IMG/VR virus record: IMGVR_UViG_3300021962_000332
Location: 1-34,966 of that record
Source: a virus
Strand: one strand, 5' to 3'
DNA length: 34,966 nucleotides
Below, piece after piece: positions 9,521 to 31,632 of this stretch (positions within the stretch are counted from its first letter, which is position 1; each line of letters opens with the position of its first letter). Made by a program: the position numbers and the translations under genes. The notes beneath the pieces are model-generated. The model was not told where the DNA came from. It did not search any database and worked only from the letters and a program-made list of their open reading frames with translations.

Positions 9521-10039
9521 ATGGCACAGAAAGCACTATTTATTACCATACAAGACGTAAAGCAAAAGTCTATCATTAGCGGGAATGTAGATCCCGACAA
9601 GGTGGTTCAGTTTGTTGAGGTAGCACAAGACACACACATTCAAAACTATCTTGGAGGAACGCTCTACAAGAAGCTACAGACTTTAATACTAAACGGCACC
9701 ATTGATGATGCAGGCAATGCAGATTACAAGACATTGCTTGACGATTACATCAAGCCAATGCTTATCTGGTTCACACAAAGCAACTATTTGCCATTTGCCG
9801 CCTATCAGGTCGGCAATGGCGGTATATACAAACACAGAAGTGAGAATGCAGATACCATAACCACCGATGAGCTTAATATGCTCATCAATAGAGCATCTGA
9901 GACTGCTGAGTTCTATACAAGAAGATTCATGGATTATATGGACTTTAATAGCCAGCTCTATCCAGAGTACACCACAGTAAATACTGAGGATATGCAACCA
10001 GATAAAGATGTAGGATTTCACAGTTGGTATTTAGGATAG
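9521..10039 (+). CDS. Head-tail connector-like protein (DUF6712-like)
   Basis: A 172-residue helical protein (QDVKQKSIISGNVDPDKVVQ … QNYLGGTLYKKL … AEFYTRRFMDYM). The pattern of helices and its place two bases after the portal gene fit the connector/adaptor proteins that dock on the portal ring. I associate it with the DUF6712-type proteins of Bacteroidota phages, which is recognition from memory. No catalytic motif is present. Confidence 0.68.
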   Translation: MAQKALFITIQDVKQKSIISGNVDPDKVVQFVEVAQDTHIQNYLGGTLYKKLQTLILNGTIDDAGNADYKTLLDDYIKPMLIWFTQSNYLPFAAYQVGNGGIYKHRSENADTITTDELNMLINRASETAEFYTRRFMDYMDFNSQLYPEYTTVNTEDMQPDKDVGFHSWYLG

Positions 10040-10042
10040 TAC

Positions 10043-10174
10043 ATGGGAGAGGTAAGAGGTAAATACAAGCCAAAAGAAGAGAACATAAAGAAGCTATTTG
10101 CTTTCTTAAGCAAAGAAGAACAGAAAACAACTAAAGAGGTTATCATTAATAAGAAGCAATGTCAAACACAATAG
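10043..10174 (+). CDS. Small basic protein
   Basis: A 43-residue Lys-rich ORF (MGEVRGKYKPKEENIKKLFAFLSKEEQKTTKEV…). It starts four bases after the connector stop and overlaps the next small ORF by 16 bases. It is predicted to be mainly helical. No family is recognised. The tight packing supports a real gene. Confidence 0.5.
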   Translation: MGEVRGKYKPKEENIKKLFAFLSKEEQKTTKEVIINKKQCQTQ

Positions 10175-17690: not shown

Positions 17691-18092
17691 ATGAAGTCGG
17701 TACAAGAGAGAGAAGACGAAATAGACAGAGAAGGACTAAGAGTTCTTAGGTGGTCCATGTTTGATTCACCTGACTCTCCTGGTTCTGGATATAAGTTTAT
17801 GGAGCGTGAACCTGTAGTAGCTCTCGATAGAGCTGCGCACAGGTATGAATACAGACCTAATATTATATTGGGATATACATCGGCAAATGTAGCCAACAAG
17901 ATGAGATTGGCAAGCACAGATAGCCATCGTGTAGGACACGCTGTCAGAATACGCTGTGTAGGCTCAAGAAAAAGAATAAAACTTATACGGACTTTAATGG
18001 AGCAAGGGGTAACTCGATTTGCAGTAGACAAAGAGACCTTGTATTTCGATACCGATCCACTAAAGTACCCAGAGTTTAAGTTATGGACCTGA
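17691..18092 (+). CDS. Degenerate M15-like protein (zinc ligands replaced)
   Basis: A 133-residue protein of the M15 peptidase lineage. FDSPDSPGSGYKFM (24-37), a central block ending DSHRVGHAVRIRC (77-89), RKRIKLIRTLMEQGVTRFAV and LYFDTDPLKYPEFKLWT at the end align with typical phage M15 proteins (FDSPD.PGSG … SSH..GLA.DI.C … FIHVD.D … IWT). Key residues have changed: in the HxxGxAxD motif H79 is kept but the Asp position is R86, and the FIHVD histidine is Tyr118. It is therefore probably not a zinc peptidase. It is separated from the lysis genes by an early promoter and followed by a terminator, suggesting a different job, such as binding cell-wall precursors or blocking another lysin. That role is inference. 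Confidence 0.72.
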   Translation: MKSVQEREDEIDREGLRVLRWSMFDSPDSPGSGYKFMEREPVVALDRAAHRYEYRPNIILGYTSANVANKMRLASTDSHRVGHAVRIRCVGSRKRIKLIRTLMEQGVTRFAVDKETLYFDTDPLKYPEFKLWT

Positions 18093-18142
18093 ATCTTTCC
18101 ATTAAGTAGTTTCATTAGTTTTTAGTTAGTTTGTTTGGTTTG

Positions 18143-20244: not shown

Positions 20245-20635
20245 AGCTGTGCCTCATCAGTCTGTTAGAATGACCAGAAGTGGTCATAGCTATCAGCCTA
20301 AAAAGATTACCGATTACAAAGATGCCGTTGAAGAAATGGTCAGGAGTCAACTCCCTGACCATTTTTCTATTATACCCAAAGGAACACCAATACTGATAAA
20401 CAAACTTCATTATCAATTTGAGATACCTAAGAGTTGGAGCAAGAAGAAGAAGGCGGAGGCTCATTGGATGACCTCCAGGCCCGACTTGCACGATAACTTA
20501 AACAAGGCATTATTTGATGCGCTTGAAGGTGTAGTATGGGAGGCAGATCATAATGTAGTAAAGATTGACAATATGGAAAAGTATTACGGAGAAGACAACC
20601 TAATAACAATAGAAATACAATGCTTGAACTCTTAG
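20216..20635 (+). CDS. rusA: RusA-type Holliday junction resolvase
   Basis: A 139-residue protein from the ATG at 20216; a TTG two codons earlier is less likely. It has the RusA signature: an N-terminal strand with basic residues (PHQSVRMTRSGHSYQP), then SRPDLHDNLNKALFDALEGVVWEADHNVVKIDNMEKYYG, which holds the acidic residues that coordinate metal (RPDLxDNLxKAxxDALxGVVW.xD). RusA cuts Holliday junctions to resolve recombination intermediates before packaging. One oddity is 'LHDN' with an inserted His compared with the common 'LDN'. The gene overlaps the ATPase gene by 29 bases and the next gene by 16 bases. Confidence 0.88.
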   Translation: MHIHLEIPLRAVPHQSVRMTRSGHSYQPKKITDYKDAVEEMVRSQLPDHFSIIPKGTPILINKLHYQFEIPKSWSKKKKAEAHWMTSRPDLHDNLNKALFDALEGVVWEADHNVVKIDNMEKYYGEDNLITIEIQCLNS

Positions 20636-21165
20636 CTAAAAACCATAAGCTGTGGATAAAAATGGTAGTTGGGTTTGGCTGTGATGTAGACACCGCAAAG
20701 GACATCGTTCAGTCGATGTACTTGCGTATTCATAAGTATGTTAAAGATGAACAAAAGATAATGTATAATGACGATGAGATAAACCGATTCTTCATTTACG
20801 TTACGCTAAAGAATATGTGGAAGAGTTATGAGAAGGGTGCAGATAAGTTTGTGTTCTTTGAAATAAGAGAAGACGATGCTTTAGACACAGAACTTATGGA
20901 GTTTGCCTTTGATGAGGCTATGGAGGCTGCATTTGAGCGTCTTATGGACAAGATCACACACGAGATGGACTCTTGGCATAAGTACGATAAGATACTCTCT
21001 GAGAAGTACCTTAAAAGCGATTACAGCCTAAGAGATATAGCAAGTGGATCAGGCATTAGTCTGACCAGCATCTTTAACAGCATGAGAGAAAATAAAAGAA
21101 TCCTCAAGGAGAAGTTTGCTGAGGATTACGAAGACTTTAAGAACGGAGACTATAATTTAATTTAA
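20620..21165 (+). CDS. Sigma-70-like transcription factor
   Basis: A 181-residue helical protein. Residues 20-40 (CDVDTAKDIVQSMYLRIHKY) match the start of sigma region 2 (…A.D..Q..F.K…), with further region 2 helices to about 75 (FFIYVTLKNMWKSYEK). The middle is acidic. Residues 130-165 (KYLKSDYSLRDIASGSGISLTSIFNSMRENKRILKEKF) form a helix-turn-helix like sigma region 4. It most likely redirects host RNA polymerase to phage promoters, plausibly late genes. Direct evidence for a target is lacking; the TAGTTATCCT motif is one candidate. Its start overlaps rusA by 16 bases. Confidence 0.72.
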   Translation: MLELLAKNHKLWIKMVVGFGCDVDTAKDIVQSMYLRIHKYVKDEQKIMYNDDEINRFFIYVTLKNMWKSYEKGADKFVFFEIREDDALDTELMEFAFDEAMEAAFERLMDKITHEMDSWHKYDKILSEKYLKSDYSLRDIASGSGISLTSIFNSMRENKRILKEKFAEDYEDFKNGDYNLI

Positions 21166-24124: not shown

Positions 24125-24461
24125 CTATGATGGTAAGGAGGATAAATTAATAGCCCAAGACGCTTATCTAAGCACTTTACAATGTTGGTTTTTATACAAT
24201 GAGTTTGACATCTATGAAAGCTTACTGATAACCTTTGAAGAGAAAGAGCAGTACGCAATATGCGAAGGCATCAACAAGGCCTTGTCTCGAATAGAAGAGA
24301 TAATGAATGACAGGTTTGAAGAAGCTGAGAAGTTAAAAGAAACGGAGTTCGAAGTGACTTATACTCACGAAGAACACAAAAGAGTAAGTAGATTAATATT
24401 TGAGGATATATTAAAGGAGGTTTATGAAAAGCAGGTTAGTAAGTATAAAGAGAATAATTGA
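24102..24461 (+). CDS. Hypothetical acidic helical protein
   Basis: A 119-residue protein from the ATG at 24102, overlapping the nuclease stop; a TTG-initiated longer form from 24063 would lie within that gene. It is rich in Glu and helix-forming residues (FEEKEQYAICEGINKALSRIEEIMNDRFEEAEKLKE). No recognised domain. The end overlaps the DnaA-domain gene by 38 bases. Confidence 0.58.
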   Translation: MLLEEFYNYDGKEDKLIAQDAYLSTLQCWFLYNEFDIYESLLITFEEKEQYAICEGINKALSRIEEIMNDRFEEAEKLKETEFEVTYTHEEHKRVSRLIFEDILKEVYEKQVSKYKENN

Positions 24462-24930
24462 GAACGAGATCGGTGAGCGCATAGATACCAGAAACAGAAG
24501 AAAAGATTTAATTTATGCAAGGGCTGTTTTCTGCAAGACTGGAAGAGATATGGGACTTTCCTTGTCTGCTATAGGCAAGGTCATCAATAGAGATCATGCT
24601 ACGGTACTTCATACATTAAACAATGTATACCATCACGCAGAGAAAGAAGTTTACTACAAACGCTTATACGAAGTCCTGAAGGTTGTTGTGGATGAAGGCG
24701 CACAGACAGAAGAAGTAAAGGACAGGTTTGATGCGACTAAGGAGCTGTCTGATATGATTGAGGAGCTTCAGAGAGACAACGATGCGCTTAGATATAAGCT
24801 GGTGCTTATTGAAAGAAACAAAGATAAGTTTACAGAGTTGTTTGAAGGACTTACAGAAGAGGACATTGATGAGGTGTACAATAAATTAAACATCTTTGTT
24901 AAAGTAATAAAAACAAGAGTATATAGATAG
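24424..24930 (+). CDS. Stand-alone DnaA domain IV-like DNA-binding protein
   Basis: A 168-residue protein. Residues 10-70 match the C-terminal DNA-binding domain of DnaA: RNRRKDLIYARAVFCKTGRDMGLSLSAIGKVINRDHATVLHTLNNV, with the helix-turn-helix and the DnaA signature 'RDHATVLH' (compare RDHTTVLH in bacteria). The rest is a coiled coil (about 100-130) and a helical tail, with no AAA+ domain. It could bind origin or regulatory boxes on phage DNA, recruit host factors or compete with host DnaA. It precedes the terminase genes, so a packaging-site role is also open. Confidence 0.8.
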   Translation: MKSRLVSIKRIIENEIGERIDTRNRRKDLIYARAVFCKTGRDMGLSLSAIGKVINRDHATVLHTLNNVYHHAEKEVYYKRLYEVLKVVVDEGAQTEEVKDRFDATKELSDMIEELQRDNDALRYKLVLIERNKDKFTELFEGLTEEDIDEVYNKLNIFVKVIKTRVYR

Positions 24931-26833: not shown

Positions 26834-26870
26834 AATATTATTTGTATATTTACTAAGTCAACATTACGGT

Positions 26871-26880
26871 TAGTTATCCT
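26871..26880 (+). promoter_or_regulatory. TAGTTATCCT motif, third copy
   Basis: This copy matches the first ten bases of the 13-base motif found before the starts at 7220 and 30907. Here it is followed three bases later by a terminator hairpin rather than a gene. Confidence 0.35.
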
Positions 26881-26882
26881 GT

Positions 26883-26919
26883 GGGGGCAGCGAACAATAG
26901 TAGCTGCTCCCATTTTTTT
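26883..26919 (+). terminator. Rho-independent terminator after terL
   Basis: GGGGGCAGC (26883-26891) pairs fully with GCTGCTCCC (26903-26911), including one G-U pair, around an 11-base loop. An A and seven T follow. The gene-free stretch 26834-27160 holds this terminator, a repeat cluster, a palindrome and a promoter. Confidence 0.85.
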
Positions 26920-26933
26920 ATCTGCAATCAGGA

Positions 26934-27020
26934 TCTTTAACATAGTACCCTCTTTAACATAGTAGGGGTACTCTTCCTCTTTAACATAGTATCCCCCTCA
27001 CTACCCCCTTTAATAGCGTA
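26934..27020 (+). repeat. Repeat cluster: three exact TCTTTAACATAGTA copies plus one variant
   Basis: Exact 14-base copies at 26934-26947, 26951-26964 and 26978-26991, and a diverged copy (CTTTAATAGCGTA) at 27008-27020. They are flanked by C-runs or G-runs; TACCC and GGGTA around the second copy can pair so that the conserved motif forms the loop. Confidence 0.85.
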
Positions 27021-27027
27021 TCCCCCC

Positions 27028-27059
27028 TCTAAATTGTTTTGTATAGCAAAACATTTAGA
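27028..27059 (+). promoter_or_regulatory. Large palindrome upstream of accessory promoter
   Basis: TCTAAATTGTTTTG faces CAAAACATTTAGA around a five-base centre, with a single base missing in the right arm. It is a candidate operator or RNA hairpin in the leader region. A shorter palindrome with the same TTTAGA core occurs at 28879-28895. Confidence 0.5.
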
Positions 27060-27091
27060 AGGTTGTTAAAATTTTGTTAAAGTCAAAAAAG

Positions 27092-27125
27092 TTTGAGTTT
27101 TTACTGAAAAATGTTTTTACGTTTG
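27092..27125 (+). promoter_or_regulatory. Promoter of accessory operon A
   Basis: TACGTTTG (27118-27125) is a perfect TAnnTTTG. TTTG at 27092-27095 is 22 bases upstream, slightly longer than the usual spacing. The first ATG follows 35 bases later. Confidence 0.6.
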
Positions 27126-27160
27126 TAATGCAATAGTGCAACAACTAAAAACAAACAGAA

Positions 27161-27298
27161 ATGAAATCAGAACAATTCAAACACAACTTAGCTAAACACA
27201 AAAGACAAGCTAAGGCACAAAGAGAAGAAGATAGCAGACTAAAGGATTTGTTTGCAGACTTCGGCAAAATCTATTCAGCAACTTATAAAACTAAATGA
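27161..27298 (+). CDS. Small basic helical protein
   Basis: A 45-residue protein (MKSEQFKHNLAKHKRQAKAQREEDSRLKDLFADFGKIYSATYKTK). It is highly charged and helical, first in the accessory operon after the promoter at 27118. It might bind nucleic acid, given its basic first half. No family is recognised. Confidence 0.55.
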   Translation: MKSEQFKHNLAKHKRQAKAQREEDSRLKDLFADFGKIYSATYKTK

Positions 27299-30216: not shown

Positions 30217-30239
30217 AGTAGCTTAAAACGCTTAAAAAC

Positions 30240-30265
30240 GGCCCCAATTTAGGGGCCTTTTTTTT
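30240..30265 (+). terminator. Rho-independent terminator of GP88 cassette
   Basis: GGCCCC (30240-30245) pairs with GGGGCC (30252-30257) around AATTTA, followed by eight T. Confidence 0.88.
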
Positions 30266-30414
30266 GTCCTATATTTTTCTAAAGATATTGGAACTCAATA
30301 GAGGTAGAAATTGGGTATAGAAACAAAGAAAACTTTTTCTACTATGCAATGCAAAGTACTATACATCAGCCCTTTAATATGGTTAACGTAAAATGTATGA
30401 ACATCGGTAAATCT

Positions 30415-30532
30415 AATTTTTGGGGTGTTAAGTTATTCAATTCGATGAATTCAACGTGAATTGTCGTAAGGAGAATTTTTGGTGGGGTAAGTTATTCAAT
30501 TCAATGAATTCATCAAGTCCTGTCGTGATCCT
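30415..30532 (+). repeat. Two imperfect 59-bp tandem repeats
   Basis: Each unit starts AATTTTTGG, then shares AAGTTATTCAATTC and ATGAATTCA, and later TGTCGT. Units begin at 30415 and 30474. Each holds an AATTC…GAATT inverted repeat. The length is not a multiple of three, which argues against repeated coding sequence. Confidence 0.75.
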
Positions 30533-30552
30533 ATCAACCTCAGCGTGCCCAT

Positions 30553-30585
30553 TTGCCCCGCTCCCCTCAAAGGGGGCGGAGGCAA
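30553..30585 (+). other. GC-rich hairpin
   Basis: TTGCC-CCGCTCCC pairs with GGGGGCGG-A-GGCAA: 13 base pairs including one G-U and one bulged A, six-base loop CTCAAA. No T-tract follows, so it is not a classic terminator. Confidence 0.7.
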
Positions 30586-30623
30586 GTTATAGTGAGTAGA
30601 ATACAGATAGGGATAGGGGAATA

Positions 30624-30700
30624 TGCGCCCCCCTAATAGCTCTAAAATAAATGATAATGCTGGTCAGTCTGTATGTTGGTGGGGCGCACACAAGAGCTAT
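30624..30700 (+). other. Pseudoknot-type pairing: two interleaved 8-bp stems
   Basis: TGCGCCCC (30624-30631) is the reverse complement of GGGGCGCA (30681-30688). ATAGCTCT (30636-30643) is the reverse complement of AGAGCTAT (30693-30700). The order A-B-A'-B' is that of a pseudoknot, and both spacers are four bases long. Confidence 0.65.
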
Positions 30701-30835
30701 AGAAGAGTACCAACGCAGTTACTGAGCAGACTTAGTTTAGCTGAACCAACTATGTCTCCATAGAAGTTTAGGACCATAAGCTATCCTCGCTGTATAAAGA
30801 TAACTAAAAAGGTTTAAATCTGTTCATAGATAATC

Positions 30836-30851
30836 CTTATGGTGCCATAAG
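30836..30851 (+). promoter_or_regulatory. Palindrome CTTATGG-TG-CCATAAG with extra half-site
   Basis: Perfect seven-base arms with a two-base centre, 55 bases before the late gene start at 30907. ACCATAAG also occurs at 30773-30780 and can pair with 30836-30843. It is a candidate operator or alternative RNA fold. Confidence 0.5.
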
Positions 30852-30869
30852 ATTTTATTATGCCTTAGT

Positions 30870-30904
30870 TTTGGTACAAAATAAAGAAATGTAGTTATCC
30901 TATT
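30870..30904 (+). promoter_or_regulatory. Candidate late promoter with TAGTTATCCTATT motif
   Basis: TTTG (30870-30873), 18 bases, then TAGTTATCCTATT (30892-30904). The 13-base motif is identical to 7207-7219 and ends two bases before the ATG at 30907. It may be read by the phage sigma-like factor. Confidence 0.4.
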
Positions 30905-30906
30905 AT

Positions 30907-31632
30907 ATGAGTAGAACAGTACAATTACAGTTAACTATACCGCAACGACTATCAGACATTTCACTTGAGAAGTACCAAAGGTACGTTCAGGTGTTAAAGG
31001 GCATTGAAGGTGCTACAGAGGAAGCGGGGGAGTTCTTAAATATGAAGGCCCTTGAGATATTCTGTGGTGTTGAATTAAAGGAGAGCTATAAAATACCTAT
31101 GGCCTCCTTCTCAGGGATCTTGGAAAAGATAGCCGATTGCCTGCAAGAACCTACACCGCTTATAAAGCGGTTTTGGTTCAGGGGGACTAATAATGTGGAA
31201 GTAGAGTTTGGTATGATACCAGACCTAAAAGACATATCGTTTGGTGAGTACATAGACTTAGACAAGTATATCGGGGACTGGAAACAGATGCACAGAGCGA
31301 TGGCTATACTATTTAGACCCATTACAGCTAAGAAAGGCGAGTTCTACGAGATAGAGGACTATGAAGGGTCTGACAAGTATGCAGGCCACATGCAACACAT
31401 GCCCACAAGCGTAGCCCTTGGAGCGTTGGTTTTTTTTTATCGTTTAGGAATGAAATTGTCGAAACATACGATGGACTATTCACTCAAACAAATGACGGAG
31501 GAGCAGCTCCAGCAAGTAGAGAGCAGGTTTTTGGAAGCAAATGGGGTTGGTATCAATCACTTTATGCAGTCGCTGGAGGAGATGTCACACGCTTTAACAA
31601 GGTTGCCGAAGAGCCACTCACCAAGTGCTTAA
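30907..31632 (+). CDS. Tail assembly chaperone, short form (G-like)
   Basis: A 241-residue protein, first of the tail operon. Domains: a basic strand-helix start (SRTVQLQLTIPQRLSDISLEKYQRYVQVL), an EFGMIPDLKDISFGEYIDLDKYIGDWKQMHRAMAILFRPI block (about 100-140), and a helical end (DYSLKQMTEEQLQQVESRFLEANGVGINHFMQSL). This is the pattern of Bacteroidota phage tail-assembly chaperones, which coat the tape measure during tail building. Nine T at 31430-31438 contain a T-TTT-TTT slip site in frame, giving the longer form described separately. Both overlapping frames look like real protein. Confidence 0.8.
   Translation: MSRTVQLQLTIPQRLSDISLEKYQRYVQVLKGIEGATEEAGEFLNMKALEIFCGVELKESYKIPMASFSGILEKIADCLQEPTPLIKRFWFRGTNNVEVEFGMIPDLKDISFGEYIDLDKYIGDWKQMHRAMAILFRPITAKKGEFYEIEDYEGSDKYAGHMQHMPTSVALGALVFFYRLGMKLSKHTMDYSLKQMTEEQLQQVESRFLEANGVGINHFMQSLEEMSHALTRLPKSHSPSA

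Follow-up and report, generated by a model that had tools for sequence, protein, structure and literature searches.

A triple-pseudoknot candidate noncoding RNA carried by Bacteroidota phages and chromosomal islands

GOLLD and ROOL are large structured noncoding RNAs of phages and prophages, which contain pseudoknots and whose function is unknown (PMC12286853). The phage ICP1 produces an abundant noncoding RNA from an ORF-less gap of about 1 kb, and its satellite PLE has an abundant noncoding RNA too (PMC7567579). With regard to topology, a survey from 2012 found the ABCABC pattern of helices in 51 RNAs versus 1688 with the ABAB pattern (PMC3390330). The ABCABC arrangement, referred to as a pseudotrefoil or triple knot, is already known, but uncommon. 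The put RNA of phage HK022 is a structured leader that lies 5' of a long co-directional phage operon, is made up of two hairpins and acts on transcription read-through.

The gap and its phage

The RNA described here was found in an IMG/VR virus record of 34,966 bases, the whole of which was analysed and is referred to as the window. Its gene order is that of a tailed phage, with a tape-measure-like gene at 859 (named by length and position), followed by genes for the portal (7731), an Erf-like protein (18452), an exonuclease (23342) and the large terminase (25619). Since the nearest relatives are uncultivated records and the chromosomal copies of the RNA are located in Bacteroidota, we infer a host within this phylum. 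The phage is of marine type. One 168-aa protein of the window (24424-24930) includes the C-terminal DNA-binding domain of DnaA (PF08299, E 9e-9), in a phage where DnaA was not otherwise noticed. A 181-aa protein (20620-21165) has a weak match, below the cut-off, to YlxM/UPF0122, which resembles sigma region 4 (E 0.004), and might serve the phage as a late-gene sigma factor. In the gap that follows the large terminase (26834-27251) there is a hairpin resembling a terminator, and CTCTTTAACATAGTA occurs three times between C-rich runs.

The gap of interest extends over 690 bp (30217-30906) and is the longest in the window, where the next longest is 418 bp; it contains no ORF of at least 60 aa on either strand. 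Within its first 49 bp sits the intrinsic terminator of the upstream gene block (30240..30265, + strand), a 6-bp GC stem followed by T8 that forms the left border of the region. On the other side the first gene of the tail block (30907..31632, + strand) encodes a 241-aa protein that matches phrog_32199 (E 4e-13), a family annotated as of unknown function, so that the RNA is positioned 3' of a terminator and 5' of the tail genes. The initial annotation had described a gene-free structured element of 640 bp at this place. The lack of ORFs holds, but the covarying core occupies only about 30624-30714, with further structure reaching to about 30900.

All of the elements that make up the RNA and its flanks are read on the + strand. 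Furthest to the left are two 53-nt direct repeats (30415-30467 and 30474-30526), 81% identical and 59 bp apart, which contain TAAGTTATTCAATTCRATGAATTCA and GTAAGTTATTCAATTCRATGAATTCA. They have counterparts 5' of the tail gene in seven related loci (L002, L003, L004, L024, L026, L028 and L032) and a more diverged one in L044, and are kept in phages of the group whichever RNA comes after them. They may be late promoters or operators arranged in tandem. At its 5' side the RNA carries a GC-rich hairpin of about 15 pairs (30551..30587), which was recovered by folding and confirms one already noticed in the initial annotation; hairpins of other sequence take the equivalent place in L002, L003, L031 and L032. 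Following the core, a hairpin CTATG-tctc-CATAG (30750..30763) varies in both arms among members, where it appears as CTATA/TATAG, CCATA/TATGG or GTAGC/GCTAC. The leader is finally closed by a helix between GATAACTA (30799..30806) and TAGTTATC (30892..30899), the latter ending 7 nt before the ATG of the tail gene. A nested fold of 30545-30900 is mildly unusual in energy (z = -2.2) and recovers unaided the 5' hairpin, one helix of the core (helix C, below), the hairpin at 30750 and the closing helix. A further hairpin, D (CAG...CTG, 3' of the core), was dropped; it is absent in L031 and L125.

Three crossing helices and their covariation

The core had been noted as two eight-base pairings with interleaved arms, and these are exact in position and perfect in complementarity. 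The 5' arm of helix A (TGCGCCCC, 30624..30631) pairs with GGGGCGCA at 30681..30688, and the 5' arm of helix B (ATAGCTCT, 30636..30643) pairs with AGAGCTAT at 30693..30700, with spacers of four bases on both sides, between A and B as well as between A' and B', just as described. The pseudoknot topology proposed for them was correct in that both crossing helices are real, but it overlooked a third interleaved helix, C, which is newly recognised here. This helix is formed by GTTGGT (30675..30680), which abuts A', and ACCAAC (30709..30714), which lies just 5' of a conserved GCA. The order of the helices is A-B-C-A'-B'-C', and sequence comparison, rather than a three-dimensional structure, indicates that every helix crosses the other two. 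The segment between B and C, TGCTGGTCAGTCTGTAT (30658..30674), consists of columns that are invariant or nearly so in alignments A5, A6 and A9, and a second conserved segment, GCAGTTACTGAGCAGACTTAG...CTGAACCAAC (30715..30750), follows the knot on its 3' side in alignments A5 and A9.

Taken by itself, the pairing of A and B is borderline. When the 641-bp region was shuffled with its dinucleotides preserved, 102 of 2000 shuffles held at least one pair of perfect 8-bp helices that interleave within 110 nt. This amounts to a chance of about 5%, and hence a comparison with relatives was needed.

The search started from the downstream tail protein, which led to close relatives; among these L003 retains the segment at high identity, and in L002 and L004 the gap is filled differently. 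Searching with a profile of this protein then gave 80 loci, of which several (L026, L027, L028-L030, L031 and L032) display the same arrangement with different letters in the arms. Scanning viral and bacterial collections for motifs yielded L104, L107, L112 and L114, and the conserved unpaired segments, used alone as the query, brought in 19 further virus loci. Two covariance models, R1 and R2, were run on approximately 1,600 genomes, mostly of Bacteroidota, and identified chromosomal copies in G001, G002, G317, G840, G804, G1124, G1154 and G1148. Such copies are rare in a scan whose first-look filter may miss weak ones, and a search of the genomes for the tail gene found no relatives. In total, about 30 virus records of IMG/VR and 8 assemblies of Bacteroidota contain homologs of the core.

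A number of candidates were rejected along the way. L008, picked up by a motif of 17 bases that adjoins an HNH gene, is a chance match that lacks the helices, and 12 of the 13 stretches returned by the first gapped pattern were due to chance. L119, from a scan for helix order, is coding sequence, and L110, L111 and L113, from a pattern scan of genomes, are coding or unrelated.

The window and 12 homologous loci gave no family match at gathering score against Rfam 15, which includes GOLLD, ROOL, HEARO, the group I intron, ribozymes and riboswitches; at E<=10 there were weak matches far below the gathering scores, mostly on the terminator. Five family members used as blastn queries, for which this program is weak, gave only chance-level matches among GenBank phages, so that no named phage is known to carry the RNA. 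The family is absent from Rfam and from the open-access literature searched, and its novelty should be read as "not found" rather than as "proved new".

Helices A, B and C are formed by all 23 of the distinct sequences tabulated, and for each of the 23 the observed A/B/C pairing was reached by 0 of 200 shuffles. Members have 14 versions of A and 15 each of B and C, with arms that are wholly different yet complementary, while the spacers usually measure 2-6 nt between A and B, 4-6 nt between A' and B' and 7-8 nt between B' and C'. Helix C, for instance, is GTTGGT/ACCAAC in the window, ATCTGT/ACAGAT in L031, GCTAG/CTAGC in L104, CTTAT/ATAAG in L112, AACTGTT/AACAGTT in L118 and GTTAG/CTAAC in L139. 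As the arms of A and B were picked by complementarity, only helix C, whose arms were placed solely by the flanking conserved sequence, provides a wholly unbiased count. Over 14 versions it has 69 of 70 Watson-Crick pairs, versus 31.1 +/- 4.8 when the arms are permuted, a level of pairing attained in 0 of 100,000 permutations. On an alignment made by MAFFT from sequence only, helix C is 98.8% paired with changes on both sides at 5/5 pairs, and the covariation score is 0.415, compared with 0.183 +/- 0.019 for shuffled and 0.09-0.13 for slid partners. As judged from these comparisons, compensatory change is shown to maintain the helices across the virus records and assemblies. The recurrence of the same knot in different letters from record to record argues for a real RNA family, and the structured phage noncoding RNA with a pseudoknot put forward in the initial annotation is strongly supported, the covariation suggested there as a check being decisively present.

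Genomic contexts and competing explanations

In the phage of the window and in most of its relatives the RNA lies immediately 5' of the tail gene, behind the terminator, and no further terminator was found between the RNA and the tail operon. This commonest position would be accounted for by a cis-acting leader of the tail (late) operon, which as it is being made would bind RNA polymerase or ribosomes and in this way set read-through or translation, the put sites of HK022 being the precedent for transcription. Such a role would also fit the covarying closing helix so close to the ATG, as well as the finding that phages without the triple-knot core have another conserved paired leader in the same place, as is the case in the L033 group. 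What is common to all the tail leaders is, however, the closing helix, which is also present in phages with another RNA at the site, and not the knot. Moreover, every gene that flanks the RNA in L130 and L139 lies on the opposite strand, the copy in L124 has a block of reversed genes after it and that in L118 converges with an integrase gene, so that the RNA is not in every case upstream of, and co-oriented with, an operon. In L142 it precedes the tape-measure-like gene. The antisense copies, together with those in chromosomal islands, indicate that the RNA is more than a leader for the tail gene, and the cis-acting explanation is considered possible but rather unlikely.

Among the chromosomal copies, those of G317 and G1154 adjoin a tyrosine integrase gene and a gene for a protein of 107-114 aa, and that of G840 sits in an island with an integrase and a DUF5681 gene. 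Further copies are found in islands beside tRNA-Met, of which the G804 island has genes that by eye resemble type I restriction genes. Identity between G804 and G1124 is 95% in the RNA region and about 73% in the shared neighbouring genes, a disparity that suggests transfer or strong constraint. The RNA is conserved independently of any single downstream gene, and no partner protein is constant across the contexts. The island proteins that adjoin it can be likened, weakly, to small terminases or sigma factors; one of them, in island L150 (8314-8763), has a weak sigma-like match (E 0.002). In the same island, repeats of about 180 nt (9864-10045 and 17865-18095) flank RNA-adjacent cargo with genes resembling a type I restriction system, and similar repeats flank cargo in L148 (8280-8462 and 11875-12055). 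Around the RNA islands in L120 (17538-17602 and 19069-19133), L151 and L152, the terminal 65 nt of an integrase gene recur several times, as if the 3' end of this gene had been the target of repeated insertion by elements.

The place 5' of the tail gene can be filled in other ways. In L033-L050 a region about 200 nt 5' of the tail gene has a GC hairpin and a 7-bp helix that changes from GATAATC/GATTATC to GATAACC/GGTTATC. L002 (280-1080) and L024 (1600-2500) share a different conserved, hairpin-rich filler, possibly another RNA class, and the gap of L004 holds a GIY-YIG gene on the other strand. The gap variants have in common the repeats on the left side and the closing helix on the right, and since the fillers in between differ, the locus looks like a site where elements can be exchanged for one another, the triple-knot RNA among them.

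As the fold is kept while neighbouring genes and their orientation change, the most plausible reading of the locus is an RNA gene that stands on its own. We favour, with moderate confidence, a structured noncoding RNA of phages and islands that would be transcribed and probably acts in trans. The gap would encode this RNA from about 30550 to at least 30790, with a core folded as an ABCABC pseudoknot whose conserved segments, between B and C and after C', would be single-stranded. Transcription would take place on the + strand, in the window presumably as the opening few hundred nucleotides of a tail-operon transcript that is made behind the terminator, and elsewhere under the control of the RNA's own promoter. 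With less certainty, it may act in trans during the lytic cycle as a compact RNA or RNA-protein particle, in the manner of other phage and satellite noncoding RNAs, rather than controlling the adjacent gene only. More tentatively, the family may represent a hitherto undescribed class of trans-acting ABCABC RNAs common to Bacteroidota phages and to small chromosomal islands, possibly satellites, with a function that both need, such as supplying the RNA of a particle that takes part in the lytic cycle or in their mutual competition.

Caution about the RNA identity comes mainly from the scarcity of G-U pairs, which is odd for an RNA. Helix C has none in 85 cells and A and B have nearly none inside, their cores being almost purely Watson-Crick, which fits the pairing of single-stranded DNA better. 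The element might then be an origin, packaging or recombination signal that acts as a folded single strand of DNA, and islands, which carry the element, would need cis signals of this sort for replication or packaging. Against this, the conserved motifs are strand-specific, and U-G pairs do occur in the closing helix (in 11 of the 18 sequences, the outer pair being G-C in 8/18 and U-A in 8/18). The origin or packaging site suggested in the initial annotation has no positive evidence, as no replication or packaging function maps there and the terminase genes are 4-5 kb away. A packaging RNA of the phi29 type binds the packaging motor and is required to package DNA; here the terminase genes are located elsewhere. 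The strand-specific motifs and the place behind a terminator favour RNA, and a DNA element appears improbable.

It is also quite improbable that the locus encodes a catalytic or mobile RNA, either a ribozyme that cleaves itself or an RNA mobilised together with homing endonucleases. The compact knot with its conserved unpaired segments would suit such an activity, as would the endonuclease genes found near some copies. GIY-YIG genes lie in or beside the RNA gap in L004 (2262-2711) and L124 (6509-7273), and ORFs with HNH-like zinc motifs, recognised by eye, in L125 (379-975) and L139 (8724-9257), in each case on the strand opposite the RNA. Most copies, though, have no endonuclease gene, no ribozyme, intron or HEARO model of Rfam matches and no splice or cleavage site is known; the endonucleases are perhaps homing enzymes that simply target the conserved sequence of the RNA locus. 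Chance pairing in a junk spacer, for which the interleaved helices in shuffled sequence might have spoken, is refuted by the covariation over 23 distinct sequences with 14-15 versions per helix and is of negligible probability.

Comparison with known systems

With a core of about 90-110 nt, the triple-knot RNA is small enough for probing, crystallography and mutagenesis, and its rare topology together with its presence in phages and islands would make the function of a structured phage RNA testable. With its covariance model, long gaps that seem "empty" in Bacteroidota phages known only from uncultivated records could be annotated.

The closest counterparts are GOLLD and ROOL, whose shapes are known, but the triple-knot RNA differs from them in sequence, in its smaller core and in its topology, and none of the Rfam models, theirs included, matches it. 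Unlike them, it has not been observed close to tRNA islands of phages. Structured RNAs accompanied by HNH or GIY-YIG genes include the HEARO/IscB guide RNAs and group I introns, as are some of the loci described here, where, however, the endonuclease is optional and of mixed type. In comparison to the two hairpins of HK022 put, the present RNA forms a triple pseudoknot and occurs additionally in antisense and standalone contexts. With the ABCABC RNAs already described it shares an identical order of helices, a likeness of topology. The resemblance to ICP1 and PLE, which belong with a different host phylum, lies in a noncoding RNA carried by both phage and satellite, that of the phage in an ORF-less gap. 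The noncoding RNAs of ICP1 and PLE are not described as homologs of one another, whereas the phage and island copies of the triple-knot RNA are homologs.
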